Part shown: positions 7,936 to 29,144 of the stretch, in pieces
How positions within the stretch are numbered: the stretch's first letter is position 1
How the letters are laid out: each line of letters starts with the position of its first letter
Assembly: GCF_030145145.1 (NCBI RefSeq)
Contig: NZ_JAQYWD010000030.1
Span: forward strand, 1-64,000
Direction of reading: 5' to 3'
DNA from: Desulfobacula sp.
GTDB taxonomy: Bacteria; Desulfobacterota; Desulfobacteria; Desulfobacterales; Desulfobacteraceae
Length of the DNA: 64,000 nucleotides
Notes under the pieces: model-generated
The model's database searches: none
Seen by the model: the letters and a program-made list of their open reading frames with translations, nothing else
Told to the model about the DNA's origin: nothing
Position numbers and translations under genes: made by a program

Positions 7936-8499
7936 TTATTCCCCGAGCATACCTTTTTTAAGTTTCTTATCGGCAGGATTGGAAGACAGCCAGATGCCGA
8001 ACAGTGCTTTCTTAAAAGGCATTCCACTGATTGTATCTTTAAGAGTACCATTTTTAAAAACAGTTATTCCGCCACCCTTAGCATAAACCATTTCAAAAAC
8101 ATCACCTTTTTCTATTTTTTCTGAAAAACAGGCATTAAATGCATCTATCTCAACTTTTATCTCATCTGTTTTTCCGCCTGTTGATTTTTCAAACCCCTCG
8201 ATTGTGGATGCCATCATTTTTTCCGATGTGATCATTCCCGAAATAATTTCAAGCCTTATAGCCATATCTTTGTCAGCATTCATTATGGCTTCTGCATCAT
8301 TTGATTTTTCTTCCAGATATAGCATTCCAACATAAAGCTTTATAAACATTTTGGATCTGATTCCGGCACCATTAAGCATTAATTCCTGGTTCGCAGTTTT
8401 AAGACTATCTTCAATCATAACACCCGCGATCTCTTTTGACGCACCTGCCTCGGACACAAAGGCCAAAACACATAATACGAACACGATCCTTTTCAGCAT
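7936..8499 (-). CDS. Exported chalcone-isomerase-like protein
   Basis: 187 residues with a Sec signal peptide (MLKRIVFVLCVLAFVSEAGA, cleavage probably after about residue 20). The mature part follows the bacterial chalcone-isomerase-like family: early ELMLNGAGIRSKMFIKLYVGMLYLE, a middle MAIRLEIISGMITSEKM, and a late GGGITVFKNGTLKDTISGMPFKKALFGIWLS. In this family the protein is periplasmic and non-catalytic in most bacteria, probably binding fatty acids or other hydrophobic ligands. It precedes the exporter and SRPBCC genes on the same strand with an 82-base gap, so an envelope-lipid role shared by the three is a reasonable inference. Confidence 0.8.
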   Translation of the reverse strand: MLKRIVFVLCVLAFVSEAGASKEIAGVMIEDSLKTANQELMLNGAGIRSKMFIKLYVGMLYLEEKSNDAEAIMNADKDMAIRLEIISGMITSEKMMASTIEGFEKSTGGKTDEIKVEIDAFNACFSEKIEKGDVFEMVYAKGGGITVFKNGTLKDTISGMPFKKALFGIWLSSNPADKKLKKGMLGE

Positions 8500-8858
8500 T
8501 GCATAAGCTCCTTTATTAAATAGTTACTCAACTTTCGGTGTTGGCAATTTACATGGGATGCCCGAAAGTTGATATAGGTATTAACCTGACCGTCTTGGAT
8601 GGCCAATGAAGATTTCTCAATACAAATTTTATTGACAACCATATCAAATCAGGGTGTGCGGTTTAGCTCTCAAACATATACAAACTGCTTACAGATGGGT
8701 CAAGAAATTCTTTTTTTGCACAGACAATCTGGCACAGGGATAATTACTGAACCTGGCCCTATAATCATGGAAAATTCCGGCCGTCACCGATGATACCGCC
8801 AATTGCTCCGGCACTGGGTCTCTGTTTCCCGGACCTCTTTTTCTGTTCATTTTTTTTC
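8500..8858. other. Intergenic stretch between divergent genes, nothing recognised
   Basis: About 360 bases between the start of the chalcone-isomerase-like gene (minus strand) and the promoter of the IclR gene (plus strand). A 64-codon open frame near 8600-8790 has no recognisable motif, no good ribosome binding site and an odd composition, so I do not call it. AT-rich tracts near 8620-8640 may contain the minus-strand promoter. Confidence 0.4.
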
Positions 8859-8888
8859 TTGACATGACATTGGTTTTTTATCTATTAT
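8859..8888 (+). promoter_or_regulatory. Sigma-70-type promoter of the IclR-led operon
   Basis: A perfect -35 TTGACA (8859-8864), an 18-base spacer and a -10 TATTAT (8883-8888). Transcription would start near 8895, about 45 bases before the IclR start codon. No other promoter is visible before the molybdoenzyme genes, which follow without a gap, so this promoter may serve the entire set to 15331. Confidence 0.7.
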
Positions 8889-8890
8889 GC

Positions 8891-8914
8891 AGAACGTTGT
8901 TCTATATACAGAAC
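8891..8914 (+). promoter_or_regulatory. Palindromic operator overlapping the transcription start
   Basis: AGAAC-GTT-GTTCT at 8891-8903 is a perfect 5-3-5 inverted repeat directly after the -10 box, and a further AGAAC half-site follows at 8910-8914. Its position over the expected start site suits a repressor, and the first downstream gene encodes an IclR-family regulator, so autoregulation is the simplest reading. Confidence 0.6.
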
Positions 8915-8940
8915 TATTTATAATAAAAAGGATGACCTGA

Positions 8941-9723
8941 ATGACCATAGAAAAGAAAAAGTCCCTCTACCACCCGTCGTCCCCTGCTGTGGAACAGGCG
9001 GCGCAATTGCTGTTGTGCCTTGGAAGAAACAAGGACAATGAGATGGGTTTGACAACGATCTGTAATGAAATCGGCATCCATAAAAGCAAGGGGTATTCCA
9101 TACTAAATGCATTGACCCAGTATGATTTAATCACAAAAGACCGGCAGGCAAAAACCTATTCCCTGGGACCGGCCCTCATGCCACTGGCGCGAAAGGCAAA
9201 GGAGAAACTGGACATCAATGCCATTGCAAAACATCATCTTCAACAGCTGGCCGATGAAACCCGGGCCAGCGCATTGCTGGGTATCATCTGCAATGATCAG
9301 TTTTATATCGCAGGGAAATATGATGGAAACAAAGGACTTTCCGTCACCGTCAATCAATACCAGTCCCTGCACATCACTCACGGGTCCCATGGAAAAGCCA
9401 TTTTTGCATTCCTTGATGGAAAAGAACAGCAAAGAATCATTGATTCAGATCAGCTGTTTTTTCATGGCGATATTGACGATTTGGACAAAAAAAGACTTGA
9501 GCAGGAACTGAGTTTCTGCCGTAAAAACGGATATGCGGTTGACAATGGCGAAAGCACACCGGGAATCCGGGCGGTCAGTGCGCCTGTCTTTGATCACAAC
9601 AATGAGGTCACAGCCGGCATCGTGCTTGTGGGAACGTTTACGGAAGATAAGTTCGAAGCATTTGGAACAAAGATTGCAACGGTTGGTCGGATCATTTCCA
9701 AACAGGCCGGGGCTCAATTTTAA
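8941..9723 (+). CDS. IclR-family transcriptional regulator
   Basis: 260 residues with the family's two-domain layout: an N-terminal winged helix (about residues 14-75, including TTICNEIGIHKSKGYSILNAL as recognition region) and a C-terminal GAF-like effector domain (about 85-255, with ITHGSHGKAIFAF, ENGESTPGIRAVSAPVFDH-like phrase DNGESTPGIRAVSAPVFDH and the late AGIVLVGTF). These proteins sense small, often aromatic or organic-acid, metabolites and usually repress neighbouring catabolic genes. The gene ends six bases before the first possible start of the molybdoenzyme gene, so it is the first gene of that operon. A strong promoter with an AGAAC palindrome precedes it. The effector is unknown. 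Confidence 0.9.
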   Translation: MTIEKKKSLYHPSSPAVEQAAQLLLCLGRNKDNEMGLTTICNEIGIHKSKGYSILNALTQYDLITKDRQAKTYSLGPALMPLARKAKEKLDINAIAKHHLQQLADETRASALLGIICNDQFYIAGKYDGNKGLSVTVNQYQSLHITHGSHGKAIFAFLDGKEQQRIIDSDQLFFHGDIDDLDKKRLEQELSFCRKNGYAVDNGESTPGIRAVSAPVFDHNNEVTAGIVLVGTFTEDKFEAFGTKIATVGRIISKQAGAQF

Positions 9724-9753
9724 TCATTCATGAAAAAGGGATCGGACAGAAAA

Positions 9754-12195
9754 ATGGGAAAAAGTAAAACCACCATCGTTAAGACAACGACCTGGTCCGC
9801 AGGTCCCGGATGTCATGGGGGGTGCGGCGTTCTTGCCCATATTAAAGACAACCGTCTGGTGAAACTGGAAGGTGATCCAGATCACCCCTGGAACCAGGGC
9901 CGCCTTTGCGCAAGAGCCCTGGCCATGACCCAGTATATCGATCATCATGATCGGTTAAGGGCCCCCCTTAAACGGGTTGGCAAACGCGGGGAGGATCAAT
10001 TTGTAGAAATCTCATGGGAAGAGGCCCTGGATACCATTGAAAAAAAAATGAACACCATCCGGGAGGCGTTCGGTCCCGAAAGCATGATCTTTTCCATGGG
10101 AACCGGTCGTGACATCGGCCCGTGGATCTGTATGCTGGCCTATGCCTATGGCAGCCCCAATGTAATGTTCGCCCTGAGCGGGAATGCGTGTTACAGTCCG
10201 AGAATCGCGGCCCTGGACACCATCCAGGGAGATTATAGTGTTTTTGATGCAGCCCAGTGGCTGCCGGGCCGGTATGACAACCCAGAATACAAAGTGCCGG
10301 AGTGCATGATCATCTGGGGGTATAATATATCCGCCACCTGCCCTGACAATCTATTCGGACACTGGATCATTGACCTGATGAAAAAAGGGACAAAAATCAT
10401 CACCATTGACCCCAGACTTTCCTGGTTTGCCTCCCGCTCTGAGCACTGGCTCCCCATCCGCCCGGGAACAGATGCAGCCCTTGCCCTTGGATTTTTGCAT
10501 GTTATTATCAAAGAGCAGCTTTATGACCAGACCTTCCTTGAAACCTGGACAGATGCCCCAAGACTGGTGAGAAACGATACAGGAAAACTGTTGCGGGAAT
10601 CAGATATGACAGCAGACGGATCAACAGAGAATTTTGTTGGTTTTGATCTACAAACAAAAACACCGGTTATCTGGAACACCATCCGTCAAAAATTTTCCAT
10701 CGAAGATTCAAATATAGCTTTGACAGGAAGTTTTGACATAAGGCTCTTAAATGGCGATATTATTGCCTGTACAACTGTCTGGGATCAATTCAAGGACAGC
10801 TGTGCTGCCTATACGCCTGAAACAGTTGAAAAGATCACCTTTGTCCCGGCCAACGATATCCAAAAGGCAGCCCGATTTTATGCAAAGGCCCAGCCGGCTT
10901 CCATTCACTGGGGTGTCCCCATTGACATGACCCCGGAAATCACACCGTTATGCCATGCCATCGCCGCTTTATGGGCGTTGACCGGCAACCTGGACGTTCC
11001 CGGTGGAAATGTATTTACCCGTGCGGCATTTAATGCGGTTGCCTATGCCCTCCCGGGTGCCGAAGGCGTGATCAAATTAAAGGATCCGGCCCAGGACAAG
11101 CCGCGAATCGGCAAAGATGACTATGGCCCGTTCAATAAATTCATATGGCGATGCCAGACCGACAAGGTCATTGAGCAGATTTTCAGTGAAGACCCCTACC
11201 CGGTTAAGGGATTGTGGATGCAGACCTGCAACCCGTTATCCGGTATTGGCCTTGATCCGAAACTATGGCAAAAAGCACTGGAAAAATTGGATTTTATTGT
11301 GGGGGTGGACCTGTTTATGACCTCATCCCTGAGGTATGCCGACATTATCCTGCCCGCAGCCACTTTTCTTGAAAAAGAAGGGGTCCGGTCCTGGTGGGTC
11401 CCGCTGCAGACGATTAACAAAGCCATGACCGTTGAGGGATGCCGGCCGGATGTTGAGATCAATTTTGAATTGGCCAAACGGTTTGATCCTGATTTTAAAT
11501 GGGAAACCCTCCATGACCTGTTTGATGAGATACTTAAACCCTCGGGCATGAGCTTTGAACAGCTGGCAGAAAAAGGATGGGCCCTGCCCCCGGAAAACCA
11601 TGCGTCCCGGCCCTATTTCCGTCATGAACGAGGGGTGTTGAGATCAGACGGTAAGCCTGGCTTTGCCACGCCATCAGGCAAGTTTGAACTGTATTCAACC
11701 CTGAGGGAGGAATGGGGCCTTAAAGCGGTGCCCTATTTTAAGGAACCCCCCTTTACCCCGGTGTCACGACCGGACCTGTTCAAAACGTATCCGCTGATCC
11801 TGAGTACCGGCAGACGGTCACCGGCGTTCTTTCACGCAGAACATCGCAATATTCCCTGGCTGAGAGCCCTTGATCCCGACCCTGTGGTGGAAATCCATCC
11901 GGATACGGCAAAGAAAAACGATATCTCCAACGGTGAATGGGTGACGGTGGAAAACTGGATGGGAACCGCCAGGTTCAAGGCCAAAGTCACAAAGATTGTC
12001 CCGCCCTGGATGGTCATGGCTGCCCATGGCTGGTGGTTCCCGGAAAAAAAGGAGGACCCGTTGTTCCATACATTTGAATCCAATATCAATATGCTGATCC
12101 CCATGAACGAACAGGGAGAAGACGGCCTGGGGGCACCCATCAAGCATCTTTTATGCAGGATAAGCAAGGAAACCAGAGGGAGTGCCCATGTCTAA
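9754..12195 (+). CDS. Molybdopterin oxidoreductase, catalytic subunit, copy 1 (DMSO reductase family)
   Basis: About 813 residues from the ATG at 9754; an earlier ATG at 9730 is in frame but has no ribosome binding site, while 9754 lies after AAAAAGGGAT and aligns with the start of copy 2. The cluster motif near the N-terminus keeps three cysteines with the usual x3 and x27 spacing (CHGGC, then NQGRLC) but has Gly where the first cysteine should be. GNACYSPR, about 120 residues later, offers a Cys as molybdenum or tungsten ligand. The C-terminal MopB domain starts near residue 680 (LILSTGRRSPAF and EIHPDTAKKN). No Tat signal, so cytoplasmic. It transfers electrons or hydrates an unknown substrate with the partner ferredoxin that overlaps its stop codon. 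Confidence 0.85.
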   Translation: MGKSKTTIVKTTTWSAGPGCHGGCGVLAHIKDNRLVKLEGDPDHPWNQGRLCARALAMTQYIDHHDRLRAPLKRVGKRGEDQFVEISWEEALDTIEKKMNTIREAFGPESMIFSMGTGRDIGPWICMLAYAYGSPNVMFALSGNACYSPRIAALDTIQGDYSVFDAAQWLPGRYDNPEYKVPECMIIWGYNISATCPDNLFGHWIIDLMKKGTKIITIDPRLSWFASRSEHWLPIRPGTDAALALGFLHVIIKEQLYDQTFLETWTDAPRLVRNDTGKLLRESDMTADGSTENFVGFDLQTKTPVIWNTIRQKFSIEDSNIALTGSFDIRLLNGDIIACTTVWDQFKDSCAAYTPETVEKITFVPANDIQKAARFYAKAQPASIHWGVPIDMTPEITPLCHAIAALWALTGNLDVPGGNVFTRAAFNAVAYALPGAEGVIKLKDPAQDKPRIGKDDYGPFNKFIWRCQTDKVIEQIFSEDPYPVKGLWMQTCNPLSGIGLDPKLWQKALEKLDFIVGVDLFMTSSLRYADIILPAATFLEKEGVRSWWVPLQTINKAMTVEGCRPDVEINFELAKRFDPDFKWETLHDLFDEILKPSGMSFEQLAEKGWALPPENHASRPYFRHERGVLRSDGKPGFATPSGKFELYSTLREEWGLKAVPYFKEPPFTPVSRPDLFKTYPLILSTGRRSPAFFHAEHRNIPWLRALDPDPVVEIHPDTAKKNDISNGEWVTVENWMGTARFKAKVTKIVPPWMVMAAHGWWFPEKKEDPLFHTFESNINMLIPMNEQGEDGLGAPIKHLLCRISKETRGSAHV

Positions 12196-12529
12196 ATCAA
12201 ACAAAAACGGGATGCTGATTGATTATGAATATTGTACGGGATGCTTTTCCTGCACCGTTGCCTGCTGCCAGGAAAATGGATGGGAAGCCCCGTTAAGCGG
12301 TATGAAAGTAATGGAAATCGTGCAGGATTTACCAAAAGACAAAGCCTATCTCACCTTCCTGCCCTTCCCCACTGAGCTTTGTGTCTTATGTAACCACCGG
12401 ACCAGACAGGGTCTTGATCCGGCTTGTGTCAAACACTGTATGGCAAATTGTCTGACATATGGACCGTTAAAAGAACTTGCCGGAGAACTTGAAAAAAAGC
12501 CAAGGATGGTTCTCTGGTCGCCACGATAA
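12188..12529 (+). CDS. Dicluster ferredoxin-type small subunit, copy 1
   Basis: 113 residues from the ATG at 12188 (a GTG at 12182 is also in frame), overlapping the end of the catalytic gene by eight bases and preceded by GAGGGAG. It has eight conserved cysteines for two [4Fe-4S] clusters: CTGCFSCTVAC near residue 16, then CVLC followed by ACVKHCMANC. The sequence GMLIDYEYC at the start is shared with copy 2. It is like the first half of DmsB-type subunits and carries electrons to or from the molybdoenzyme. No membrane anchor gene is present, so the pair is probably soluble. Confidence 0.85.
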   Translation: MSKSNKNGMLIDYEYCTGCFSCTVACCQENGWEAPLSGMKVMEIVQDLPKDKAYLTFLPFPTELCVLCNHRTRQGLDPACVKHCMANCLTYGPLKELAGELEKKPRMVLWSPR

Positions 12530-12554
12530 TATTCAATCCAACAAGGAGAATGGT

Positions 12555-14990
12555 ATGAAAGAGGATGGGGTAAAAATCATTAAAACAACGACCTGGTCAC
12601 CGGGTCCAGGCTGTCATGGCGGGTGCGGGATACTGGTCCATGTCAAGGACGACAAAGTGATCAAGGTGGAAGGCGACCCGGATCACCCCTGGAACCAGGG
12701 AAGATTGTGTTCGCGGTGTCTTTCCATGACCCAATACATGTACCACAAGGACCGGCTAAGAAAACCGCTGAAACGCATCGGAGAAAGGGGACAAGGAAAA
12801 TTTGAAGAGATTTCCTGGGATGAGGCCTTTGACCTGATTGAACAGAAAATGAAAAAAATCCGGGAAGATCATGGACCGGAATCCGTCATCTTTCACCAGG
12901 GAACGGGCCGGGATATCGGCGGATGGATCTCCATGCTGGCCTATGCCTATGGAAGTCCCAACTGGATGTTCGGCCTTTCCGGCATCTCCTGTTATACGCC
13001 GCGCCTGATGATGATGTCCATCACCCAGGGGGATTTTGCCGTGGTGGATGCATCCCAGTGGCATGAAAAAAGGTATGATGATCCTGAATATAAAATTCCT
13101 GAAACCGTTACCATCTGGGGTCAGAACCTGCCTGCCACCTGCCCGGACGGTTTCTTTGGTCACTGGTACATAGACCTGATGAAAAGGGGTACCGAGGTGC
13201 TGGTTATTGACCCCAGATGCACCTGGATTGCCTCCCGGGCAAAACTCTGGCTCCAGTTAAGACCGGGAACCGATGCCGCCCTTGCCCTTGGATTTATCCA
13301 TGTCATGATCAAAGAAGACCTCATCAACATGGCATTCGTTGAACGATGGACCAACTCCCCGTTCCTGGTGAGAACGGACCAGGAAAAGAAACGTCTGTTA
13401 AGGGAGAGTGACCTTATAAAAAACGGTCTGGATACCAATTTCATTGCCCACGACCCTGTTTCCGACAGTTTTGTGGTATGGGATTCCGACCACCAGACCT
13501 ATAAAAAGAAAAATATTACCCCGTCCATGGAGGGAGACTTCACCCTGGCCCTTGCAGACGGCTCAACCGCAACGGCAAAAACGGTCTGGACCCTGTACAA
13601 AGAAAACGCTGAACAGTATACGCCCGAAGCCGTATCCAAGATCACCTGGGTGCCGGCAGATAAAATCAGAAAGGCTGCCCGGATCTATGCGAAAAGCCAG
13701 CCATCCGCCCTTCACTGGGGCCTTCCCATTGACACCATCCCGTCAACGGTGCCCACATCCCAGGCCATCAACCACCTCTGGTGCCTGACCGGGAACCTTG
13801 ACAATCCCGGGGGCAATGCCATTGCCCGGTATGCCTATGACGTGGTGACCTATCCCTATCACTCGGGCGGCGCCATTCTCAGCCTTCCCCCTGAAGTCAT
13901 GGATAAACGCATAGGGATCCATGATTATGGGGCAATAAAAGATTTCAGGGCATGGGCCCAGCCCGATAAAGTATTGGAACAGATCTCTTCAGACGATCCC
14001 TATCCCATCAAGGGTATGTGGATACAGACAGCCAATCCCATTGCCTGCACCGGCATGGAGCCTAAAAAATGGCGGGATGCCATTAAAAAACTCGATTTCA
14101 CCGTTTGTGTGGATCTTTTCATGACCCCCACGGCCATGCTCTGTGATGTGATCCTGCCCGCGGCCACCTTTCTGGAAAAAGATTCTTTAAAGGCCTGGTG
14201 GGTTCCCCTGCAGGCCATTAAACGAGTCGTGGAGGTGGACGACTGCAAATCAGACATTGAGATCAACCTTGAGTTGTGCAAGCGCTTCATGAAAGATTTT
14301 CCCTATGACAATACCCAGGAACTCTTTGACACGCTGCTGAAATCTGCCGGTATCACCTATCAGGAACTCACCGATAACACCTGGATGATCCCCCCCAAAG
14401 GCCACCCCAGCAAACCCTATTTTAGATATGAAAAAGGCCTGCTCAGACAGGATAAGAAACCGGGATTCAGAACACCGTCGGGGAAAATCGAACTGTATTC
14501 CTCCTGGCTTGAAAAATGGGAACTGGAGCCCCTGCCCTACCATGAGGAACCGCCCTACAGCCCGGTGAGTACACCGGATCTGTTTGCGGACTACCCCCTC
14601 ATCCTGTGTACCGGCCGGAGAATGGGACCTTTTTTCCATTCGGAACATCGCCAGATTCCCTGGCTTCGGGAACAGCAAAGAGACCCGGTCCTGGAAATCC
14701 ACCCGGATACGGCTGAAAAATACGGCATCGCCCACGGAGAAAAGGTGTGTGTGGAAAACTGGCTGGGAAAAATCACGGTAAAAGCATTGGTGACGCCGGT
14801 GATTCATCCGGATATTGTCATGGCGGAACATGGATGGTGGTTTCCGGAAAAAGAAGGCAAAGAACCCAACCTGTTCGGTGTCTGGGATGTCAATGTCAAC
14901 CAGCTCATTCCCATGGGTCATGAAGGCAAAGCAGGATTGGGAGCGCCCATAAAAAGCATGCTGTGCAAAGTCTATAAAGCGAAAGGATAA
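12555..14990 (+). CDS. Molybdopterin oxidoreductase, catalytic subunit, copy 2
   Basis: 811 residues from the ATG at 12555, chosen because AAGGAG lies just before it; the open frame extends upstream into the preceding gene. It is a close paralogue of copy 1 along its entire length: same three-cysteine motif (CHGGC and NQGRLC, first ligand replaced by Gly), same Cys in SGISCYTPR as probable metal ligand, same GTDAALALGF, and same MopB end (LILCTGRRMGPFFHSEH). Differences cluster in the middle (about residues 270-360) where substrate access is expected, hinting at a different substrate. No signal peptide. It is followed after five bases by its own small subunit. Confidence 0.85.
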   Translation: MKEDGVKIIKTTTWSPGPGCHGGCGILVHVKDDKVIKVEGDPDHPWNQGRLCSRCLSMTQYMYHKDRLRKPLKRIGERGQGKFEEISWDEAFDLIEQKMKKIREDHGPESVIFHQGTGRDIGGWISMLAYAYGSPNWMFGLSGISCYTPRLMMMSITQGDFAVVDASQWHEKRYDDPEYKIPETVTIWGQNLPATCPDGFFGHWYIDLMKRGTEVLVIDPRCTWIASRAKLWLQLRPGTDAALALGFIHVMIKEDLINMAFVERWTNSPFLVRTDQEKKRLLRESDLIKNGLDTNFIAHDPVSDSFVVWDSDHQTYKKKNITPSMEGDFTLALADGSTATAKTVWTLYKENAEQYTPEAVSKITWVPADKIRKAARIYAKSQPSALHWGLPIDTIPSTVPTSQAINHLWCLTGNLDNPGGNAIARYAYDVVTYPYHSGGAILSLPPEVMDKRIGIHDYGAIKDFRAWAQPDKVLEQISSDDPYPIKGMWIQTANPIACTGMEPKKWRDAIKKLDFTVCVDLFMTPTAMLCDVILPAATFLEKDSLKAWWVPLQAIKRVVEVDDCKSDIEINLELCKRFMKDFPYDNTQELFDTLLKSAGITYQELTDNTWMIPPKGHPSKPYFRYEKGLLRQDKKPGFRTPSGKIELYSSWLEKWELEPLPYHEEPPYSPVSTPDLFADYPLILCTGRRMGPFFHSEHRQIPWLREQQRDPVLEIHPDTAEKYGIAHGEKVCVENWLGKITVKALVTPVIHPDIVMAEHGWWFPEKEGKEPNLFGVWDVNVNQLIPMGHEGKAGLGAPIKSMLCKVYKAKG

Positions 14991-14995
14991 AAAAG

Positions 14996-15331
14996 ATGTC
15001 AGAATATGGAATGTTGATCGATTATGAATATTGCACCGGCTGCAGGACCTGTGAAGTGGCCTGTAAACAGGAATATGGCCGGCCGGCCGGGAAAGTTGGA
15101 GGGGTGGAGGTAACAGAATACATCCACACCCTTCCCAATGGCAAATTATTTATTACCAATATCCCCACGTTTACCCGGGCCTGTGTTTTTTGTGCTGGTC
15201 GTGTTAAACAGGGACTTGAACCTGCCTGCGTAAAACACTGCATGGCAAATATTTTGACCTTCGGCAAAATTGAAGACTTACACGACAAAATCCCGAAAAA
15301 AAGAAAGGCCATTCTCTGGACCAAAGGGTAA
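14996..15331 (+). CDS. Dicluster ferredoxin-type small subunit, copy 2
   Basis: 111 residues, paralogue of the copy 1 small subunit: GMLIDYEYCTGCRTCEVAC gives the first four cysteines, CVFC and ACVKHCMAN the next four minus one replacement (ANIL here against ANCL in copy 1), so the second cluster may be ligated through CVFC, ACV and KHC. The start ATG follows AAAAAAG five bases after the catalytic gene stop. It is the last gene of the operon; a strong palindrome lies seven bases after its stop codon. Confidence 0.85.
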   Translation: MSEYGMLIDYEYCTGCRTCEVACKQEYGRPAGKVGGVEVTEYIHTLPNGKLFITNIPTFTRACVFCAGRVKQGLEPACVKHCMANILTFGKIEDLHDKIPKKRKAILWTKG

Positions 15332-15597: not shown

Positions 15598-16941
15598 ATG
15601 AAACAAAAAAAGACAACCAGCCCATTGACTGAGGATACCACCAAAGTCATTCTTGACAGCATCTCCGATGGCGTTTTTACAACCGATTATAATTGGAGAA
15701 TCACATCTTTTAACCGGGCAGCAGAAAAAATAACCGGCATCTCCCGCAAGGACGCCATTGGTCGGCATTGCTGGGAAGTTTTCCGTTCCAACATGTGTGA
15801 AAAAGACTGTGCCCTCAAAAGGACCATGGAAGAAGGCAGGCCCTTCATCAACTCATCCGGATATATTATTAACAATAAAAAGAAAAAAATCCCCATTACC
15901 GTATCCACTTCCCTGTTGATCGATAAAAACGCAGAGGTGATCGGCGGCGTTGAAACCTTCAGGGATCATTCGCTTGTTGAACAGCTGCGAAAAGAACTTT
16001 CAACTAGATTTAAAGTCGAAGATATTGTCAGCAACAGCGATGCCATGAAAAATATTTTTAATATTCTGCCCCAGGTATCAGACAGTGATTCTTCAGTTCT
16101 CATTGAGGGCGAGACCGGTACCGGAAAAGAATTGCTTGCCCGGGCCATCCACAATATGAGCAACCGAAAAAAAAATCCGTTCATTGCCATCAATTGTGGG
16201 GCACTTCCGGATACGCTGCTGGAATCTGAATTGTTTGGATACAAAAAAGGGGCTTTTACCAATGCCGTGAAGGACAAACCCGGTCAATTTGCCCTGGCCG
16301 ATGGGGGTACCATCTTCCTTGATGAAATCGGAGATACCAGCCCTGCCTTTCAAGTCAGCCTTCTCCGGGTTCTTCAGGAGCATGAATTCACCCCCCTTGG
16401 TGCCCTGGACCAGGAAAAAACCAATATCCGAATTATCGCCGCGACCAACAGAGATCTCACAACGCTTGTGGCCCAGAATCAATTCAGACAGGATCTGTAT
16501 TACCGGATCAATGTGATACGACTTACCTTACCACCCTTAAGACATCGAATGGAAGACATTCCCCTTCTGGTGGAGTCCTTTATTCAGAAAATGAATGTCC
16601 GCCAGGGAAAATTTATCCAGGGCATTGACAAAAAAGTCCTTGAGTCCTTTATGAGCCATGAGTTTCCAGGCAATATCCGGGAACTTGAGAATATTATTGA
16701 GCATGCCTTTGTCCTCTGCTCCGAGGGCTATATAAAAGGCAATCACCTGCCCGGGTTTCTATCATTACCGGCCAGTATCAATACGGAGAAAGACAATAAC
16801 CCCGTCAAATCAGCACAGATCAAACTTCTGACCGATGCCTTGGCACGCAATAACTACAACCGCAGTGCTGCCGCCAAAGATCTGGGAATCCATAAAAGCA
16901 CCCTTTTCAGAAGGATTAAAAAACTGGGGATGAGATTATAA
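15598..16941 (+). CDS. Sigma-54-dependent activator (PAS, AAA+, Fis HTH)
   Basis: 447 residues in three domains. A PAS domain (about 15-130) has three cysteines in HCWEVFRSNMCEKDC, a pattern often seen in PAS domains of anaerobe activators and possibly redox or metal sensing. The AAA+ domain (about 143-375) has Walker A GETGTGKE at 171-178, the sigma-54 contact loop as GAFTNA (218-223, instead of GAFTGA), Walker B TIFLDE (238-243) and the arginine-rich RQDLYYRINV. The Fis-type HTH ends the protein (RSAAAKDLGIHKSTLFRRIKKLG). There is no receiver domain, so control is by ligand or redox state rather than phosphorylation. A sigma-54 promoter and two matching palindromes lie upstream; another sigma-54 promoter lies after it before the NifX-like gene. 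Confidence 0.92.
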   Translation: MKQKKTTSPLTEDTTKVILDSISDGVFTTDYNWRITSFNRAAEKITGISRKDAIGRHCWEVFRSNMCEKDCALKRTMEEGRPFINSSGYIINNKKKKIPITVSTSLLIDKNAEVIGGVETFRDHSLVEQLRKELSTRFKVEDIVSNSDAMKNIFNILPQVSDSDSSVLIEGETGTGKELLARAIHNMSNRKKNPFIAINCGALPDTLLESELFGYKKGAFTNAVKDKPGQFALADGGTIFLDEIGDTSPAFQVSLLRVLQEHEFTPLGALDQEKTNIRIIAATNRDLTTLVAQNQFRQDLYYRINVIRLTLPPLRHRMEDIPLLVESFIQKMNVRQGKFIQGIDKKVLESFMSHEFPGNIRELENIIEHAFVLCSEGYIKGNHLPGFLSLPASINTEKDNNPVKSAQIKLLTDALARNNYNRSAAAKDLGIHKSTLFRRIKKLGMRL

Positions 16942-17145: not shown

Positions 17146-17544
17146 TTGAAAGTAGCCGTAACAATCTGGGGAAATCGAATCTCACCTGTTTTTGATGCTG
17201 CGGGCACACTGCTTGTGGCCCAGATCAAAAACCGGATGATCATCAAAAAAAGCTATACATCCTTTAACCCTGAGACACCTTCCGATCTGATAAAAACACT
17301 GAAACAAATGGGAATTTCCATTCTCATATGTGGTGCCATTTCTACCAAACCTGCAGATTTGATCGTTGAGAATGATATCAAACTCATCTCTTTTGTGACG
17401 GGAAGTGCGTTAAAACTTCTCGAAGATTTTGCCCATAAACAGACCATTGAAAAAGCATTTATGATGCCGGGGTGCAGCAAACAATACTGCTGGCGCCACA
17501 AATCGGACAAAACGACGGTTAAGGGGACAGGCCCTGTCGGCTGA
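17146..17544 (+). CDS. NifX/NafY-type (dinitrogenase FeMo-cofactor-like) domain protein
   Basis: 132 residues starting at a TTG that follows GGAGGA by five bases; MKVAVTIWGNRISPVFDAAG is the usual first strand and loop of the NifB/NifX/VnfX fold, and GISILICGAISTKPADLIVENDI is the central conserved part. Small proteins of this fold bind iron-molybdenum or related metal clusters. No nif genes are near; in this context, after two molybdoenzymes, a role in handling a molybdenum or iron-sulfur species is plausible but unproved. The tail (about 105-132) has CSKQYCWRHKSD, with two cysteines and a histidine that could bind metal. It is under a sigma-54 promoter. Confidence 0.8.
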   Translation: MKVAVTIWGNRISPVFDAAGTLLVAQIKNRMIIKKSYTSFNPETPSDLIKTLKQMGISILICGAISTKPADLIVENDIKLISFVTGSALKLLEDFAHKQTIEKAFMMPGCSKQYCWRHKSDKTTVKGTGPVG

Positions 17545-17752
17545 GCCCTTAACTGATCCGGCACGGGATCGCGTAAAAGATACGTCCATCAAGCCGGATG
17601 GGTATGCCCTTCACTTGGAATCACCTAAAAATTCAACAAATTTTTCTTTACAGCACGCGCTGCAATTGATAATCAAACATATCTATGCGAATGATGATAT
17701 GCTAAATAGTATATCACAACAACCTATTAATGATAACATAGTCGAGGTAATT

Positions 17753-18097
17753 ATGAAGCGTTTAACACCCATTGTTCTTTTGACCGTTTTTCTTTTTTTC
17801 ACTGGCTATTCTTATGCTATGGCCCAGAACACCGGCAAAAAATCTATGGTGCTCAATGGCGGCAATAAGGGAATCGTTAATTTCGAACACCATATGCACC
17901 AGGCCATTGCCAAGGACTGTGCCATCTGCCATTCCTTATTTCCACAAACTCCTGGTTCTTTAGATCAATCAAAAGAGAATGGGACCATCAAAGCAAAACA
18001 GGTCATGAATACAGTTTGCCTCAAATGCCACCGGGACATGAAAAAAGCCGGTGAAAAATTCGGTCCAGTAAGCTGTTCCGGATGTCATACTAAATAG
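17753..18097 (+). CDS. Small periplasmic c-type cytochrome with three haem motifs
   Basis: 114 residues from the ATG at 17753 (GAGGT ribosome binding site); the open frame begins earlier but the signal peptide MKRLTPIVLLTVFLFFTGYSY marks the true start. The mature protein has three CxxCH motifs, CAICH, CLKCH and CSGCH, plus the distal-ligand style FEHHMHQ before the first motif, as in the cytochrome c7/c3 group. It would carry electrons in the periplasm. It lies about 200 bases after the NifX-like gene on the same strand and may belong to the same sigma-54 unit. Confidence 0.85.
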   Translation: MKRLTPIVLLTVFLFFTGYSYAMAQNTGKKSMVLNGGNKGIVNFEHHMHQAIAKDCAICHSLFPQTPGSLDQSKENGTIKAKQVMNTVCLKCHRDMKKAGEKFGPVSCSGCHTK

Positions 18098-21427: not shown

Positions 21428-22507
21428 TTATTCATATCGACCGAATTGTTCAGCCGCGTCCATCATGGCCATGACCTTTATGGGGGCTGCGTCTGCAGGG
21501 AATTCACACCCCGGTGTCAGGATAAATCCACCCGGGTTGTCTTTGCCCTCGTCAATGGCATCCTTGCACAATTGAACGACTTCTGCATAGGGTTTCTCAA
21601 GAATGGCAATGGGATCCACATTACCACAGATGATATCATGATCCCCAAACGCTTTCATCTGATCGGGAATAGATGTTTCCGGACCAAAAATCCAAATGTA
21701 TCTGCCGTGCCAATCACAGGCCTCTCTCATTTGAACATAATAAGGAATGTTTAAATTCTGATCGGCACACGGATGCATCAACACGGCACCAATGCCCAGT
21801 TCTTTTATCTTTTGATTCACTTTTAAATTATAGGGATAGACCAGGTCCCTGAAGGTGTCCGGTGAGATCATGCCGTTGGCTTCCAGGGGACCGGCCTGAA
21901 ACGGCATACACTGCTGGGCACCGAATTTATTGGCAAAATACTCCAGGGCATTGATAAACATGTCACTGACCTTGTCCATGAGCATGCGAACCGCATCCGG
22001 TTCCGTAATCACCCAGGTTAAAAAAGCGTTGGTGTCCGCCACCTGGGCAGCCGCTGAAAAAATACTCCCCGCCTGGAAACCGGCCGGCATACCCATTTCA
22101 ACACACCGTTCCGCATTTCGATCGGCAATGGCAAATCCGCCCGGCAAAGGGCCGTCAAATGTCGGGACCTTCAAGGTTTCTATATCTTCAAGGGTTTTTA
22201 CCGGAGACTCTATGACATAAGGTGCCAGTTCGCCGCTTCCATCGGGCATCCCCACCTTCCCGCCAAATTCCCAGGGACCACAGGCCGCATATCCGAAAAG
22301 GGGCGTCTGCTCATATCCATGGAGTCGCATACTGGCAAAATTGGCATCAAAGTAGTTGTCACCATCTGACCAGAATTCACCGGGGGGCATGCCCATGATA
22401 TTGGCCGCATATCCCTGGATAAATGGCACAACAGGAACCCTGTCGGGTTTTTCCTGTCCCATCATTACAGCCATCATTCGTTCAGGCGGTGTCATTGCTT
22501 TTGTCAT
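21428..22507 (-). CDS. UroD-type corrinoid methyltransferase (MtaA/MtvB-like)
   Basis: 359 residues of the uroporphyrinogen-decarboxylase fold. Typical phrases are PERMMAVMMGQEKPDRVPVVP at the start, then HPCADQ (about residue 240) and TPGCEFP (about 330), giving His-x-Cys and a late Cys, the zinc site used by methyltransferase members to activate a thiol or bind substrate; true decarboxylases lack it. Such enzymes move a methyl group between a substrate or coenzyme and a cobamide protein. The corrinoid protein gene lies directly upstream in the same operon and a methyltetrahydrofolate methyltransferase diverges beyond it, giving the three-part set known for O-demethylases such as MtvBCA. Substrate unknown. 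Confidence 0.85.
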   Translation of the reverse strand: MTKAMTPPERMMAVMMGQEKPDRVPVVPFIQGYAANIMGMPPGEFWSDGDNYFDANFASMRLHGYEQTPLFGYAACGPWEFGGKVGMPDGSGELAPYVIESPVKTLEDIETLKVPTFDGPLPGGFAIADRNAERCVEMGMPAGFQAGSIFSAAAQVADTNAFLTWVITEPDAVRMLMDKVSDMFINALEYFANKFGAQQCMPFQAGPLEANGMISPDTFRDLVYPYNLKVNQKIKELGIGAVLMHPCADQNLNIPYYVQMREACDWHGRYIWIFGPETSIPDQMKAFGDHDIICGNVDPIAILEKPYAEVVQLCKDAIDEGKDNPGGFILTPGCEFPADAAPIKVMAMMDAAEQFGRYE

Positions 22508-22619
22508 TTTTGGTTCTCCTTTATGATATGGTTATCGTTGGGGTTTATCTGCATCACATAATTTTAAATTCAGTTTTCCCTGTACACTTATGACCGTTAA
22601 TCCTGGGAATCGGCCAATC

Positions 22620-23246
22620 TCAAAGTGCCATCAGTTTTCTTGCGGTCTCCACGGCCTCCGGGCCATCTCCGCCATACCCGTAAGATCCAATCCGCTCGGC
22701 AAACGCCATCGAGGTTGGTGCCCCACCCACCATCGTTTTGACACCGCTGACCTGTTCTTTCAATTCAGTTACAATTTTTTCCATGGCCGGCATACTGGTG
22801 GTCAAAAGAGAGGATAACGCAGCAATATCGGCATTATTATCCGTAATCGCCTTCACGAATGCCGCCGTATCATTGTCGACACCGATATCCACGACCTTGA
22901 ATCCCGCCCCTTCCAACATCATGGCCACCAAATTTTTTCCCACATCATGCTGGTCCCCTTTAACGGTTCCGATGACGATGATGCCTTTGGGCTGAGCGTT
23001 TGTTCGGGCCAAAATCGGTTTTAAAACGCCCAGCCCGTTTTTCATGGACAAGGCGCCGATGAGCATTTCCGGCACAAACAGGGCGCCCTGGCTATACTGG
23101 CGCCCCAATTCGTCCATGGCGGCAATAAGTCCATCATTGAGAATCCCTGAAACATCCGTTTTTAAATCGAGCTCCTTTTGCACGAGGTCGGCGATTTCTT
23201 TGTGTTTAAAGGCCAGGATTGCGTGATAAATGTCAGCTACTGCCAT
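22620..23246 (-). CDS. Cobamide-binding methyl-carrier protein (MtaC/MtvC-like)
   Basis: 208 residues starting at the ATG 23246, which follows AGGAGA; the frame is open further upstream but without a site. The helical cap domain (residues about 3-85) and the Rossmann-like B12 domain are both present. The base-off/His-on motif DxHxxG is D98-x-H100-x-x-G103 within KGDQHDVGKNL, with later parts SLLTTSMPAMEKIV and VGGAPTSMAFAERIG. It carries the methyl group on cobalt between the UroD-type enzyme encoded downstream and the tetrahydrofolate methyltransferase encoded divergently. The gap to the UroD gene is 112 bases. Confidence 0.92.
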   Translation of the reverse strand: MAVADIYHAILAFKHKEIADLVQKELDLKTDVSGILNDGLIAAMDELGRQYSQGALFVPEMLIGALSMKNGLGVLKPILARTNAQPKGIIVIGTVKGDQHDVGKNLVAMMLEGAGFKVVDIGVDNDTAAFVKAITDNNADIAALSSLLTTSMPAMEKIVTELKEQVSGVKTMVGGAPTSMAFAERIGSYGYGGDGPEAVETARKLMAL

Positions 23247-23286
23247 TGTTCGGTCTCCTATTTTCCGGTTGGCTGCCAAGTCTATT

Positions 23287-23324
23287 TGAGGCATATTCTA
23301 AATACAAAAATTCTTTCTTGTCAA
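23287..23324 (-). promoter_or_regulatory. Promoter of the corrinoid protein/UroD operon with shared element
   Basis: On the minus strand: -35 TTGACA (23324-23319), 18-base spacer, -10 TAGAAT, running into GAATATGCCTCA (23298-23287). The same 12 bases occur at the divergent promoter at 23714-23725, again overlapping the -10. Confidence 0.65.
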
Positions 23325-23688
23325 GAGATAAATTTTAAAAAAATAGTAAAATCATATTTAATTTTTTTTTAAAATACTTATAAATAAAGGCTATTAATAC
23401 ATGTTTATTTTTATTACCGACTTTCTGTCTCATTATAATCTTCTCATATTTGGCAGTAAATATTGCTATTTATTTTTGAATTTTGTTCAAAAAAATTTAT
23501 TAAAATTAAATTTTGAGGTATATTCTATTAAATTAGTAGGCATTTATATTTTCACGATCCATTTAACCGCCCGTGTAACCAATGACAAAATAAACAAAAT
23601 ACAACCCGTATCGCACTTCAATATTGATATTATAGATATTTAATCAACAAAAAATTTGTCAATCATATTTTAAACTTTCAATAATGAC
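23325..23688. other. AT-rich spacer between divergent promoters
   Basis: About 360 bases of very AT-rich DNA. An 80-codon open frame at 23401-23643 is Phe/Tyr/Ile/Lys-rich only because of base composition, has no ribosome binding site and is not called. Nothing else is seen. Confidence 0.4.
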
Positions 23689-23725
23689 TTGACAAAACCT
23701 TTTCTTGTTGATTGAATATGCCTCA
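23689..23725 (+). promoter_or_regulatory. Promoter of the methyltetrahydrofolate methyltransferase operon with shared element
   Basis: -35 TTGACA (23689-23694), 17-base spacer, -10 TTGAAT, then GAATATGCCTCA at 23714-23725, identical to the element at the divergent promoter. The element covers the end of the -10 and the start region, as a repressor site would. Translation starts 78 bases later. Confidence 0.65.
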
Positions 23726-23803
23726 TATATGGATAATTTCAATTCAGCAACGCATAAACAGTTAAATTTGTACAGATAACATTCAAAAATATGGGGCAAT
23801 ACA

Positions 23804-24604
23804 ATGTTTACGGTGATAGGAGAAAGAATCAATACCACTTTGGAAAAGGTAAAAGAAGCAGTAGAAAAAAGAGATGCCGACTACATCACCAATGATGTAA
23901 AAAAACAAACGGCGTGTGGTGCAACCTATATTGATGTAAACGCAGGTGCCAGGATCGGCTGCGAAGCAGACGACATGAAATGGCTCTTAGATGTCATACA
24001 GGGCGCCACAGATCTTCCCCTCTGCCTGGACAGTCCTGATCCAAAGATCCTGGAAATTGCCTATGGACGGATTGATCAAGCCCCCATGATCAATTCAATC
24101 AGTCTTGAAACGGATAGACTCAATGCCATGCTCCCCTTTCTGAAAGGGAAAGACTGCAAAGTCATTGCCCTGTGTATGGATGATTCAGGATTACCGAAAC
24201 ATTCGGATGACATTGTCAATTGTGCAAAAACCATTGTGGAAAAACTTGAACAGATCGGGATGAAACGGGAAGATATTTTTGTCGATCCATTAATTCAGCC
24301 GATCAGTGTTGACGCCAATAACGGGGCAATGGCGGTGGAAGCAGTCAAAACGATCATGCAGGACCTTAAAGGCGTTCACACAACAGGGGGGCTTTCCAAT
24401 ATCTCCTATGGCCTGCCCCAGAGGAAAATCATCAATCGCTGTTTTCTGTTGATGATGATGGCCGGCGGACTGGATTCTGCCATACTGGATCCAATGGATA
24501 ACAAGATCATGGCCGTCTTAAAAACAGGAGAATTGATTGCAGGAAATGACAGTTTTTGTATGAATTTTTTAAAATCGGTCAGGGCCGGTGAGATAAGATC
24601 GTAA
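23804..24604 (+). CDS. Methyltetrahydrofolate:corrinoid methyltransferase (MeTr/MtvA-like)
   Basis: 266 residues of the pterin-binding TIM-barrel family. MFTVIGERINTT is the classical start; DVNAGAR, LCLDSPDP, NSISLE, FVDPLIQPIS and TTGGLSNISYGLPQR follow in order and form the pterin site, as in MeTr and MetH domain 2. It moves a methyl group from a methyl-cobamide protein to tetrahydrofolate (or the reverse), here feeding the Wood-Ljungdahl C1 branch, which sulfate reducers of this type use to oxidise methyl groups. The partner corrinoid protein is encoded divergently and the promoters share a motif. Confidence 0.92.
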   Translation: MFTVIGERINTTLEKVKEAVEKRDADYITNDVKKQTACGATYIDVNAGARIGCEADDMKWLLDVIQGATDLPLCLDSPDPKILEIAYGRIDQAPMINSISLETDRLNAMLPFLKGKDCKVIALCMDDSGLPKHSDDIVNCAKTIVEKLEQIGMKREDIFVDPLIQPISVDANNGAMAVEAVKTIMQDLKGVHTTGGLSNISYGLPQRKIINRCFLLMMMAGGLDSAILDPMDNKIMAVLKTGELIAGNDSFCMNFLKSVRAGEIRS

Positions 24605-24616
24605 GGGGGTGAATCA

Positions 24617-25333
24617 ATGACTTTCCCGGATACAAATCCACACATGCTGACGCAGTTGGACATTGAGGTAACATATCAAGACCTTCTGCAGCAGATGAAA
24701 CCGTCCAGTTGCCAACCTGAAATAGTGACGATGGCAAAAGAGACCCTTGATAAAGTTAAAAACATATGGAAACCCGCAGCAGTCTATAACTGGTTTGAAT
24801 TTCAACAGATGGATACGGATACGTTAGGGTGTATTTTTCAAAACACCGGCAGTTTGTGCCTGATAAATTTCGGGTATGCCATCAAGTTCCTGAAGCATGC
24901 CACCCACGCGCTTATTTCTGTATACACTGCAGGCCATGAACTGGCGCGGGAAGCCGTAAAGGCCTCTGCCAGGGGCGACTTGCTGGAGGCGTATTTTCTT
25001 GATATCATCGGCTTGATTGTCCTTGATAGAACAGGTCAGGCCGTTAAAGCCATTGCTGAAGATCAGGCCAGAGGGTCAGGATGGGGAGTCGGCCCTTTCC
25101 TGAGCCCGGGGTCGGTCCACGGATGGGACCTGGAAGAGCAGACAAGCCTCTGCTCACTCTTACCCCTTGAACGAATCAATGTGCAAATTCAGGACGGCAT
25201 CTTATCCCCGTTTAAAACCGTTTCCTGTCTTATTGGCATGGGGCCTGGATATGAGTCTGATCAAGTTGGCAGCACCTGCCAGGTTTGCTCGAACAGGCAT
25301 GACTGCCAGATAAAACAGGCCCAAACCTGTTGA
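24617..25333 (+). CDS. MetH-reactivation-domain-like protein with C-terminal Cys motif
   Basis: 238 residues. The second half shows the signature of the S-adenosylmethionine-binding reactivation domain of cobalamin-dependent methionine synthase: GPFLSPGSVHGWDLEEQ, then SLLPLERINVQIQDGILSPF and KTVSCLIGMGPGY. The last 20 residues have CQVCSNRHDCQIKQAQTC, resembling an iron-sulfur or metal site. There is no ferredoxin domain as in RamA-type activators. The probable job is to reduce and re-methylate, or otherwise rescue, oxidised cobamide of the neighbouring methyl-carrier; this is inference from the domain and the operon (13 bases after the MeTr gene). Confidence 0.7.
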   Translation: MTFPDTNPHMLTQLDIEVTYQDLLQQMKPSSCQPEIVTMAKETLDKVKNIWKPAAVYNWFEFQQMDTDTLGCIFQNTGSLCLINFGYAIKFLKHATHALISVYTAGHELAREAVKASARGDLLEAYFLDIIGLIVLDRTGQAVKAIAEDQARGSGWGVGPFLSPGSVHGWDLEEQTSLCSLLPLERINVQIQDGILSPFKTVSCLIGMGPGYESDQVGSTCQVCSNRHDCQIKQAQTC

Positions 25334-25371
25334 TAGATAATGGCCATTTGTGATGATCTTGTTTGATTTTC

Positions 25372-25968
25372 ATGGGGAAAAAGATTATATACGGATCCAT
25401 GCTCAATACAATAATAGAAAATAAACCCAAAATACACACACGGGATATAAGCCTTGCCACCTATCCCCATACAGATTCCCGGGTGATTGTTCACGGGGTA
25501 TTAAAAGACCGGCGATACACAAGGATATTTGATGTAACAGGCGCAATGCTGGAACCGGGAATCATGCACCACATTGATGTAACGCTGCTGATAAAGCCTG
25601 ATCCGCTCATGATCGAAGACGCCCAGGCCCGGATGATCCATGTCCCCATGACGGCCTGCAACACCACCCTGGATACCATTGAACAATTAAAAGGGCTTGA
25701 GATTAAATCGGGGTTTTCAAAAAATATCAGCTTGATCATGGGGGGCAGAAAAGGATGTACCCATCTTTGCAACCTGATCATTACCATGGGCCAGGAAATT
25801 GTCCAGGGCTGGCTGGTACACAAAAGAAAGGACAAATCACCTGTTCCAAAGGATCTTGACAGCTTGAAAGAAAAAAATTTTTTAATCGATTCCTGCCGGA
25901 TGTGGACACAGCACGGCCCCAAAATGAAAAGCCTTGAAAAAGCCATAAAAGAACGGCAGTCACTTTAA
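25372..25968 (+). CDS. DUF2889-family protein
   Basis: 198 residues if started at the ATG 25372; the ATG at 25399 gives a form (MLNTIIENKPKIHTRD) that fits the family better, and neither has a strong ribosome binding site. Family marks are HTRDISLATYPHTDSRVIVHG, MLEPGIMHHIDVTLLIKPD, AMTACNTTLD-like TACNTTLDTIEQLKGL and GGRKGCTHLCNLI. DUF2889 proteins occur beside aromatic- and fatty-acid-type catabolic genes and have no assigned activity; the Cys-Thr-His-Leu motif suggests a bound metal or catalytic thiol. It ends the plus-strand operon and meets the DUF1667 gene tail to tail with an 18-base gap. Confidence 0.75.
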   Translation: MGKKIIYGSMLNTIIENKPKIHTRDISLATYPHTDSRVIVHGVLKDRRYTRIFDVTGAMLEPGIMHHIDVTLLIKPDPLMIEDAQARMIHVPMTACNTTLDTIEQLKGLEIKSGFSKNISLIMGGRKGCTHLCNLIITMGQEIVQGWLVHKRKDKSPVPKDLDSLKEKNFLIDSCRMWTQHGPKMKSLEKAIKERQSL

Positions 25969-25986: not shown

Positions 25987-26364
25987 TTAGGGCTGCACAC
26001 CGACATTTCTTGTGGCAATAATATGGCAGGGAACCCCTGCCGGATTTTCAATCAGACGATCACCAATGGTTACTGGTGCCTTAACCCTCTTGTGCTGAAT
26101 GATATCCATTACCTCAAATATTTTACCCAATGGAATGGCGGTGTCTGTTCTGACACTGACAAGTTCAAAATCACCCTGTTCAACAACGATACTGGAAGCA
26201 ATGGTCCGCATGGGATTGACAATTTCCTGTTCTACCCACGCAATGCCTTTGTCACAGGTGCATCCGCTCACCTCCAGGACTTTTAATGCAGGGGTTTCTT
26301 CAATCAGGGCCTCTACCTGGCAACCATTGGGACAGACGATACACACCAGTTCTTTTTTTAACAT
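25987..26364 (-). CDS. DUF1667 protein (Cys-rich partner of GlpA/B-type dehydrogenases)
   Basis: 125 residues with cysteines C8, C11, C15 (CIVCPNGC) and C35, C37 (GCTCDKG), the expected pattern of DUF1667 proteins. In many bacteria, for example beside glpK in Thermotoga, the gene follows a GlpA-type and a small flavoprotein gene, as here. It probably binds an iron-sulfur cluster and passes electrons on. Its ATG overlaps the end of the flavoprotein gene by seven bases. Confidence 0.85.
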   Translation of the reverse strand: MLKKELVCIVCPNGCQVEALIEETPALKVLEVSGCTCDKGIAWVEQEIVNPMRTIASSIVVEQGDFELVSVRTDTAIPLGKIFEVMDIIQHKRVKAPVTIGDRLIENPAGVPCHIIATRNVGVQP

Positions 26365-29073: not shown

Positions 29074-29144
29074 TGAATGCCATCTAACCCTTTTGCGAAG
29101 GCTGATAAACTTTGTTTACCAGCCTTTTTATATGATAACAAGCC

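Follow-up and report, generated by a model that had tools for sequence, protein, structure and literature searches.

Two molybdoenzyme-ferredoxin gene pairs of Desulfobacula sp. are probable environmental sisters of the Gordonibacter-type catechol dehydroxylases

In a stretch of 64,000 nucleotides of a Desulfobacula sp. genome (contig NZ_JAQYWD010000030.1, positions 1 to 64,000; hereafter the window) two gene pairs follow each other, each encoding a large molybdoenzyme subunit and a small ferredoxin-like subunit, and both large subunits lack the first cysteine of the usual iron-sulfur cluster motif. Do such pairs represent an undescribed enzyme system, as the initial annotation of the locus proposed, and what reaction would they catalyse? 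The general kind of enzyme turns out to be known, and what remains interesting is the environmental branch to which the pairs belong and the way in which the cluster site is lost by degrees. We consider it probable, from sequence comparison, that both pairs encode soluble members of the catechol dehydroxylase group which are built of two subunits and form an environmental sister group to the Gordonibacter type; their likeliest job would be the reductive para-dehydroxylation of catechols. The four genes are intact and stand on the plus strand in the order first described:

9754..12195, + strand: large subunit 1, catalytic, with molybdenum-cofactor domains, 813 amino acids from the ATG at 9754; C28-x3-C32-x27-C60, His29, candidate molybdenum ligand Cys154, C204 and an FHAEHR motif (large-subunit residues are numbered from the ATG at 9730)
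12188..12529, + strand: small subunit 1, a two-cluster ferredoxin, its ATG at 12188 overlapping the end of large subunit 1
12555..14990, + strand: large subunit 2, 811 amino acids, 56% identical to large subunit 1, its ATG at 12555 preceded by AAGGAG
14996..15331, + strand: small subunit 2, a two-cluster ferredoxin

Plausible ribosome sites precede the starts at 9754, 12188, 12555 and 14996. For large subunit 1 the ATG at 9754 is the better of two, since AAAAAGGG lies upstream of it and no ribosome site was seen before 9730. Large subunit 2 carries molybdenum-cofactor domains as well, and each large subunit has its own small subunit, in agreement with the annotation in both coordinates and cysteine groups. 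Each small subunit contains two four-cysteine groups (C-x2-C-x2-C-x3-C and C-x2-C-x11-C-x3-C) and may be a four-cluster DmsB-type protein reduced to two clusters. No twin-arginine translocation (Tat) or other signal peptide was seen at the N-termini, judged by eye without a predictor, and the genes between 8941 and 18097 include neither a membrane anchor nor a chaperone; the annotation had noted the same absences. All four genes are under selection, as the ratios of nonsynonymous to synonymous substitution (dN/dS) in comparison with locus L038 are 0.075 and 0.17 for large and small subunit 1, and 0.065 and 0.09 for large and small subunit 2. Neither large subunit reaches the cut-off of a curated NCBIfam family among the 25 listed (for large subunit 2, 25 of 26). 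A third copy, which shares 67% identity with large subunit 1, lies at C41 of the assembly (5.66 Mb, 89 contigs). Of the 58 genomes searched, 19 have matches at E 1e-100 or better, this genome among them.

The position of the pairs was examined in a tree of 105 of the 183 aligned large subunits, in which similar sequences were thinned, environmental rows shorter than 640 amino acids were dropped and the majority of the distant outgroups were omitted; no single branch separates the sequences chosen as outgroup from the rest, and long branches occur among them. The 84 rows without the first cysteine form one side of a branch (Shimodaira-Hasegawa-like approximate likelihood-ratio test, SH-aLRT, 100) that includes the orthologue of Dodh, a Gordonibacter-type enzyme, represented by L223, which is 94% identical to the L186 protein that is absent from the tree. 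Acetylene hydratase, the Dadh-like protein and the proteins with four cysteines are all found on the opposite side. A phylogeny of this kind had been proposed in the initial annotation; acetylene hydratase does fall outside the clade, and the clade itself is shared with Dodh, though the window rows lie in a sister branch.

The Dodh orthologue was located with the published dodh primers (passages of PMC7028382). Both match at L186 with 1 mismatch each, on opposite strands and about 180 bases apart, and a protein 94% identical to that of L186 is encoded in genome G640, where the forward dodh primer alone matched closely. With its 112 first-look candidates G640 would fit a Gordonibacter-like genome with many paralogues. 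The L186 protein (VWTGPGCHNGCG, loop WTGPGCHNGCG) has a partner whose two clusters are arranged as in the small subunits of the window, and is 34-39% identical to the window large subunits in the C-terminal part and 47-48% in the N-terminal part.

It is useful to compare the window pairs with what is described for the Gordonibacter type (Dodh, Cldh, Gp Hcdh). These enzymes are characterised, in passages of PMC7028382 (eLife 2020), as smaller, free of a Tat signal and encoded beside a gene for a small 4Fe-4S protein, in a statement of PMC11887054 (JACS 2025) as two-subunit and cytoplasmic, and, for Gp Hcdh, in a part of PMC11585353, as a two-subunit enzyme of 770 amino acids. The window pairs are alike in having a soluble catalytic subunit of about 770-820 amino acids with a small Fe-S subunit, in lacking Tat signal and anchor, and in the active-site residues; as in the Dodh orthologue, the first cluster cysteine is lost within a W-[ST]-x-P-G-C-H loop. 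A section of the review PMC11574389 already remarks on the missing Fe-S motif in Gordonibacter-type catechol dehydroxylases; this type has the very build for which the annotation knew of no characterised enzyme. The claim of novelty is unsupported because the clade, the loop, the small-subunit type and the two-subunit build all match a known type. Desulfobacula itself is named among the genera with putative dehydroxylases in a passage of PMC7028382. A literature search found no cryo-EM paper on a catechol dehydroxylase.

The active-site residues can be followed through the clade. Largely common to the 55 environmental and 29 Gordonibacter-like rows are W22, C28, H29, GTGR (124-127), C154-x2-PR (R158), D206, G210-H211, D399, R696, F701-H-x-E-H-R706 and H766-x-W-W. 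Dadh-like L196 has C154, R158 and FHSEHR; of 6 published dadh primers, 4 fit this locus with 1 to 3 mismatches, the exceptions being the full-length 5' primer and one single-nucleotide-polymorphism primer. The Eggerthella type (Dadh, Hcdh, Cadh) thus resembles the window proteins in C-x2-P-R and FHSEHR, as seen in L196, and in an RLLKESD-like stretch within an inserted segment (residues about 278-344), but it differs in the Fe-S motif of the catalytic subunit, the Tat signal, the multi-cluster partner and the membrane anchor. All four of these features were looked for and are lacking in the window pairs, which therefore do not belong to that type. The inserted segment is not peculiar to Dadh, as its columns are filled in 26 of 40 other four-cysteine rows and in 4 of 19 four-cysteine rows with His29; among those 40 rows the RLLKESD-like pattern matched the Dadh-like row alone.

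The cluster site deserves separate discussion. Both large subunits read W-S-[A/P]-G-P-G-C-H-G-G-C and keep C-x3-C-x27-C, with Gly where C-x2-C would place the first cysteine. This is as first annotated, with the refinement that the loop before C28 is longer than in four-cysteine relatives, by four residues in the environmental branch and by three in the gut-like branch, and therefore the site was rebuilt rather than changed by a plain Cys-to-Gly swap. The three-cysteine motif is not due to chance, because G25, C28, H29, C32 and C60 are kept in every one of the 55 environmental rows that has a letter there. The first cysteine is absent in 119 of the 183 aligned large subunits: with the other three cysteines kept, the position holds Gly in 103, Ala in 8 and Pro in 5, and further ligands are lost in 3. 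The region is absent in 5 proteins and the other 59 are four-cysteine or similar types. Among the 90 proteins that cluster with these large subunits (named collection plus window) 80 are of the three-cysteine and 2 of the four-cysteine type, and in the remaining 8 the region is absent or they are other proteins. The missing cysteine is a family-wide trait of the clade, and it is therefore no sign of a new system.

In part of the clade the loss goes further. A paralogue in Gordonibacter-like genomes (L218) has Asp at C28. Two other paralogues in such genomes have none of the four usual ligands, namely L220:1610-3991 (minus strand; C28 replaced by Glu, C32 by Trp and C60 by Ser) and L192:1480-3879 (minus strand; Ser, Tyr and Asn in the same order). 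The L220 and L218 proteins still adjoin a gene for a two-cluster partner, and no partner gene was seen within the short stretch examined at L192. On this showing the proximal cluster may be dispensable in part of the clade. The environmental branch differs from the Gordonibacter type in that all three remaining cysteines are kept. C204 is the sole cysteine that passes the filter for invariant positions found only in this branch, and one could suggest it as a replacement cluster ligand. It aligns next to a position that we take to correspond to Trp179 of acetylene hydratase, and may therefore line the substrate pocket. As a separate observation, on one contig (L051:4997-7162 and 8001-10427) a four-cysteine relative and a three-cysteine family member lie near each other.

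It is tempting to arrange these variants into a natural series in which the molybdenum-proximal cluster is dismantled, from four cysteines in the outgroup through three in the lengthened loop to none in L220-like paralogues. Electrons would then reach molybdenum without a proximal cluster or through a non-standard one (possibly [3Fe-4S], or completed by the environmental-only Cys204), and two ancient enzymes of this sort, side by side in Desulfobacula and its relatives, would act in an undescribed anaerobic lignin-monomer pathway of O-demethylation, para-dehydroxylation and coenzyme A (CoA) activation. We regard this combined scenario as doubtful.

For the catechol dehydroxylase reaction itself we propose the following course. 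A cytoplasmic donor would reduce both clusters of the small subunit, and the electrons would pass to the large subunit through the incompletely ligated three-cysteine cluster or directly to the pterin. Molybdenum, presumably held by two pyranopterins and Cys154, would bind the para hydroxyl of the catechol; the other hydroxyl would tautomerise, the oxygen would move to molybdenum and a 3-hydroxyphenyl product would be left. Molybdenum binding, tautomerisation and transfer of oxygen to the metal are the steps proposed for Dadh in a passage of PMC7028382. The dehydroxylated products could then enter CoA-ester pathways.

The genomic surroundings of relatives are consistent with such a fate. Both the third copy at C41 and its counterpart in G008 have a gene for a sodium:solute symporter and one for a CoA ligase next to them. 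Of these two loci only that of the third copy (L225) was submitted to family matching, which identified the symporter and assigned the ligase to the benzoate-CoA ligase family (646.9 bits against a cut-off of 375.25). A protein of this family is also found at L053 (504.7 bits). At L074, L075, L078 and L114 a CoA ligase gene occurs with genes for enoate reductase and/or acyl-CoA dehydrogenase; L074 has all three, and at L078 the CoA ligase gene is accompanied by those for acyl-CoA dehydrogenase, hydroxyacyl-CoA dehydrogenase and thiolase (among these four loci, family matches were run for L074 and L078 only). L060 and L072 contain corrinoid proteins and an activator-like ferredoxin protein, named by eye. 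Counts were made in 80 focal loci and 40 control stretches, the latter from two genomes only. Focal loci and controls compare as follows: benzoate-CoA-ligase-like proteins (10/80 vs 1/40), the tripartite ATP-independent periplasmic (TRAP) transporter binding protein (8/80 vs 0/40), acyl-CoA dehydrogenase (5/80 vs 0/40), corrinoid protein (4/80 vs 0/40, p 0.054) and enoate reductase (6/80 vs 2/40, p 0.099). Methyltetrahydrofolate methyltransferase was found in 2/80 and 1/40, and queries for the symporter and for the uroporphyrinogen decarboxylase (URO-D)-type methyltransferase of the window gave 0/80 and 0/40 each. Aconitase, a negative control, occurred in 3/80 and 0/40 (p 0.11).

Several points weigh against the assignment to catechol dehydroxylation. 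To our knowledge no activity has been measured for any environmental member. Both window rows fall outside the gut sub-branch, in a separate environmental branch of 55 rows (SH-aLRT 99), in which C204 is present in every row with a letter there, while every such row of the 29 Gordonibacter-like ones has Asn. The segment at about residues 278-344 is likewise filled in 83 of 90 environmental-labelled rows and in none of the 29 Gordonibacter-like rows, with one Dodh copy (L224) bearing the environmental label in this count. The label "Gordonibacter-like" for the genomes with a Dodh orthologue is our deduction from primers and paralogue number, and Dodh itself, according to passages of PMC7028382, was assigned on the strength of induction and gene carriage. 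The genes directly beside the window pairs include neither a CoA ligase nor an evident transporter of aromatic compounds. The context counts are biased, as the queries were drawn from the focal loci, the loci share descent and the controls come from two genomes, and they are therefore leads rather than proof; a negative-control gene, that of a PAS-domain histidine kinase (PAS-HK), was also enriched (8/80 vs 2/40, p 0.033).

Among the alternatives, an oxidative phenol enzyme has to be weighed first. A trihydroxybenzene or similar compound would be oxidised and electrons would leave through the small subunit towards sulfate respiration, which is attractive because a sulfate reducer needs electrons from its substrates. 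The hydroxyhydroquinone dehydrogenase (BtdhLS) of Thauera and Azoarcus reportedly oxidises trihydroxybenzene, and the 3,5-dihydroxybenzoate operon of Thauera aromatica presumably holds btdhLS. A homologue from that operon is placed in the same wide group in a passage of PMC7028382. Dodh, however, the nearest relative found with an assigned activity, is assigned a reductive reaction, and we hold the oxidative role to be unlikely.

It is quite unlikely, in our view, that the pairs act reductively on a substrate other than a catechol and remove a hydroxyl or a similar group from it. A molybdenum-dependent corticoid dehydroxylase of the same superfamily, described for gut Eggerthella and Gordonibacter in a part of PMC11574389, provides a precedent for such an activity, but the benzoate-CoA ligase family and beta-oxidation genes that neighbour several relatives point to aromatic acids.

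A non-redox hydration or lyase reaction, with an altered cluster no longer needed for electron transfer, is suggested by the missing first ligand and by the Protein Data Bank search, in which acetylene hydratase of Pelobacter acetylenicus (2e7z, E 6e-69) is the best solved relative; the kinship to this side of the family, noted at the outset, is thus borne out. This hydratase also has Cys at the metal-ligand position. We take acetylene hydratase to be a single-subunit enzyme with a four-cysteine cluster and a key Asp13. The window proteins differ in having three cysteines, a partner subunit and His29 at the place of this Asp; acetylene hydratase itself shows Asp at position 29, lacks FHxEHR and stands outside the clade on a long branch. 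With His29 and without the first cysteine the window proteins do not belong to the acetylene hydratases, and their two-cluster partner for electron transfer has been retained, with dN/dS far below 1, so that hydration appears very unlikely. Other relatives with His29 and four cysteines (the first copy in L051, and L132-L134) share CHGGCG and Cys-x2-P-R at the metal, but have the full C-x2-C-x3-C-x27-C, and the Fe-S partner of L132-L134 is larger and carries further cluster motifs. Transhydroxylase and resorcinol hydroxylase are molybdenum enzymes with phenolic substrates, and transhydroxylase has no cluster in its large subunit. Membership here is highly improbable, however, because position 154 is Cys in both window proteins as opposed to the Ser ligand given in a table of PMC10100899, and transhydroxylase is the weakest of 55 solved-structure matches (1.8e-5).

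Why, then, would a genome hold two catechol dehydroxylase-like pairs side by side? The initial annotation saw a tandem duplication, which must be abandoned. Large subunit 1 belongs to a 42-row subclade and large subunit 2 to an 8-row subclade, and forcing the two and their kin together costs 230 log-likelihood units (approximately unbiased test, p-AU 0.00055; 59 rows, with the group named after the tree had been seen). The pairs are thus, on phylogenetic grounds, best regarded as two old paralogues placed side by side. Close relatives (at least 72% identity) of one or the other large subunit were found at 26 loci; 4 of these carry both modules in order and the other 22 one type only, several of them on short contigs. 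As each module can stand alone, an obligate heteromer of both pairs is unlikely, and of the two options first offered, two substrates are likelier than a mixed complex. Most likely each pair would act on a different catechol, with aromatic acids, phenylpropanoids or O-demethylated lignin monomers as the source. An origin from mobile elements was also considered and rejected: none of the 51 plasmid record matches reaches 60% identity (the best of the 20 listed has 31.8%), and of the 23 phage record matches 4 of the 5 listed are annotated as dimethyl sulfoxide (DMSO) reductase.

If the pairs are indeed catechol dehydroxylases, dehydroxylation by soluble molybdenum enzymes would be widespread among environmental bacteria (sulfate reducers, Chloroflexota, Acidobacteriota and others) rather than mainly a gut trait, and the pairs would be candidate genes for the anaerobic breakdown of catechol, caffeate or protocatechuate. 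The stepwise loss of ligands makes the need for a molybdenum-proximal cluster in electron transfer testable in this superfamily.

The modules are accompanied in the window by the following genes:

8941..9723, + strand: IclR-family regulator upstream of the first module (Pfam IclR_C, 2.1e-24)
15598..16941, + strand: Sigma-54 regulator, which adjoins the modules in some relatives too
21428..25968, strand ".": corrinoid methyl-transfer genes about 6 kb downstream of the modules (URO-D-type methyltransferase, corrinoid protein, methyltetrahydrofolate methyltransferase, one further protein and DUF2889)

The IclR gene lies upstream of both pairs, as annotated. At 18 of the 26 loci mentioned above a gene of the same BLAST cluster is likewise found upstream; of the remaining 8, some begin at a contig end. 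The genes at 21428-25968 are possibly an aromatic O-demethylase system, and its association with the modules is suggestive only.

Further genes lie downstream. The Sigma-54 regulator is followed by a small NifX-like protein (Nitro_FeMo-Co, 17146-17544), as it is in L098, L100 and L106, and by a class III type multihaem cytochrome (17615-18097). In the region 26358-30581 of this anaerobe a gene of the HpaB (4-hydroxyphenylacetate 3-hydroxylase) family (29145-30581) adjoins those of a glycerol-3-phosphate-oxidase-like flavoprotein and a pyridine-nucleotide-disulfide oxidoreductase. Elsewhere in the same genome one contig (G000:C87; L004 and L006, region L227) contains more molybdoenzyme reading frames, one of which has a four-cysteine motif and, over part of its length, identity of up to 47%.

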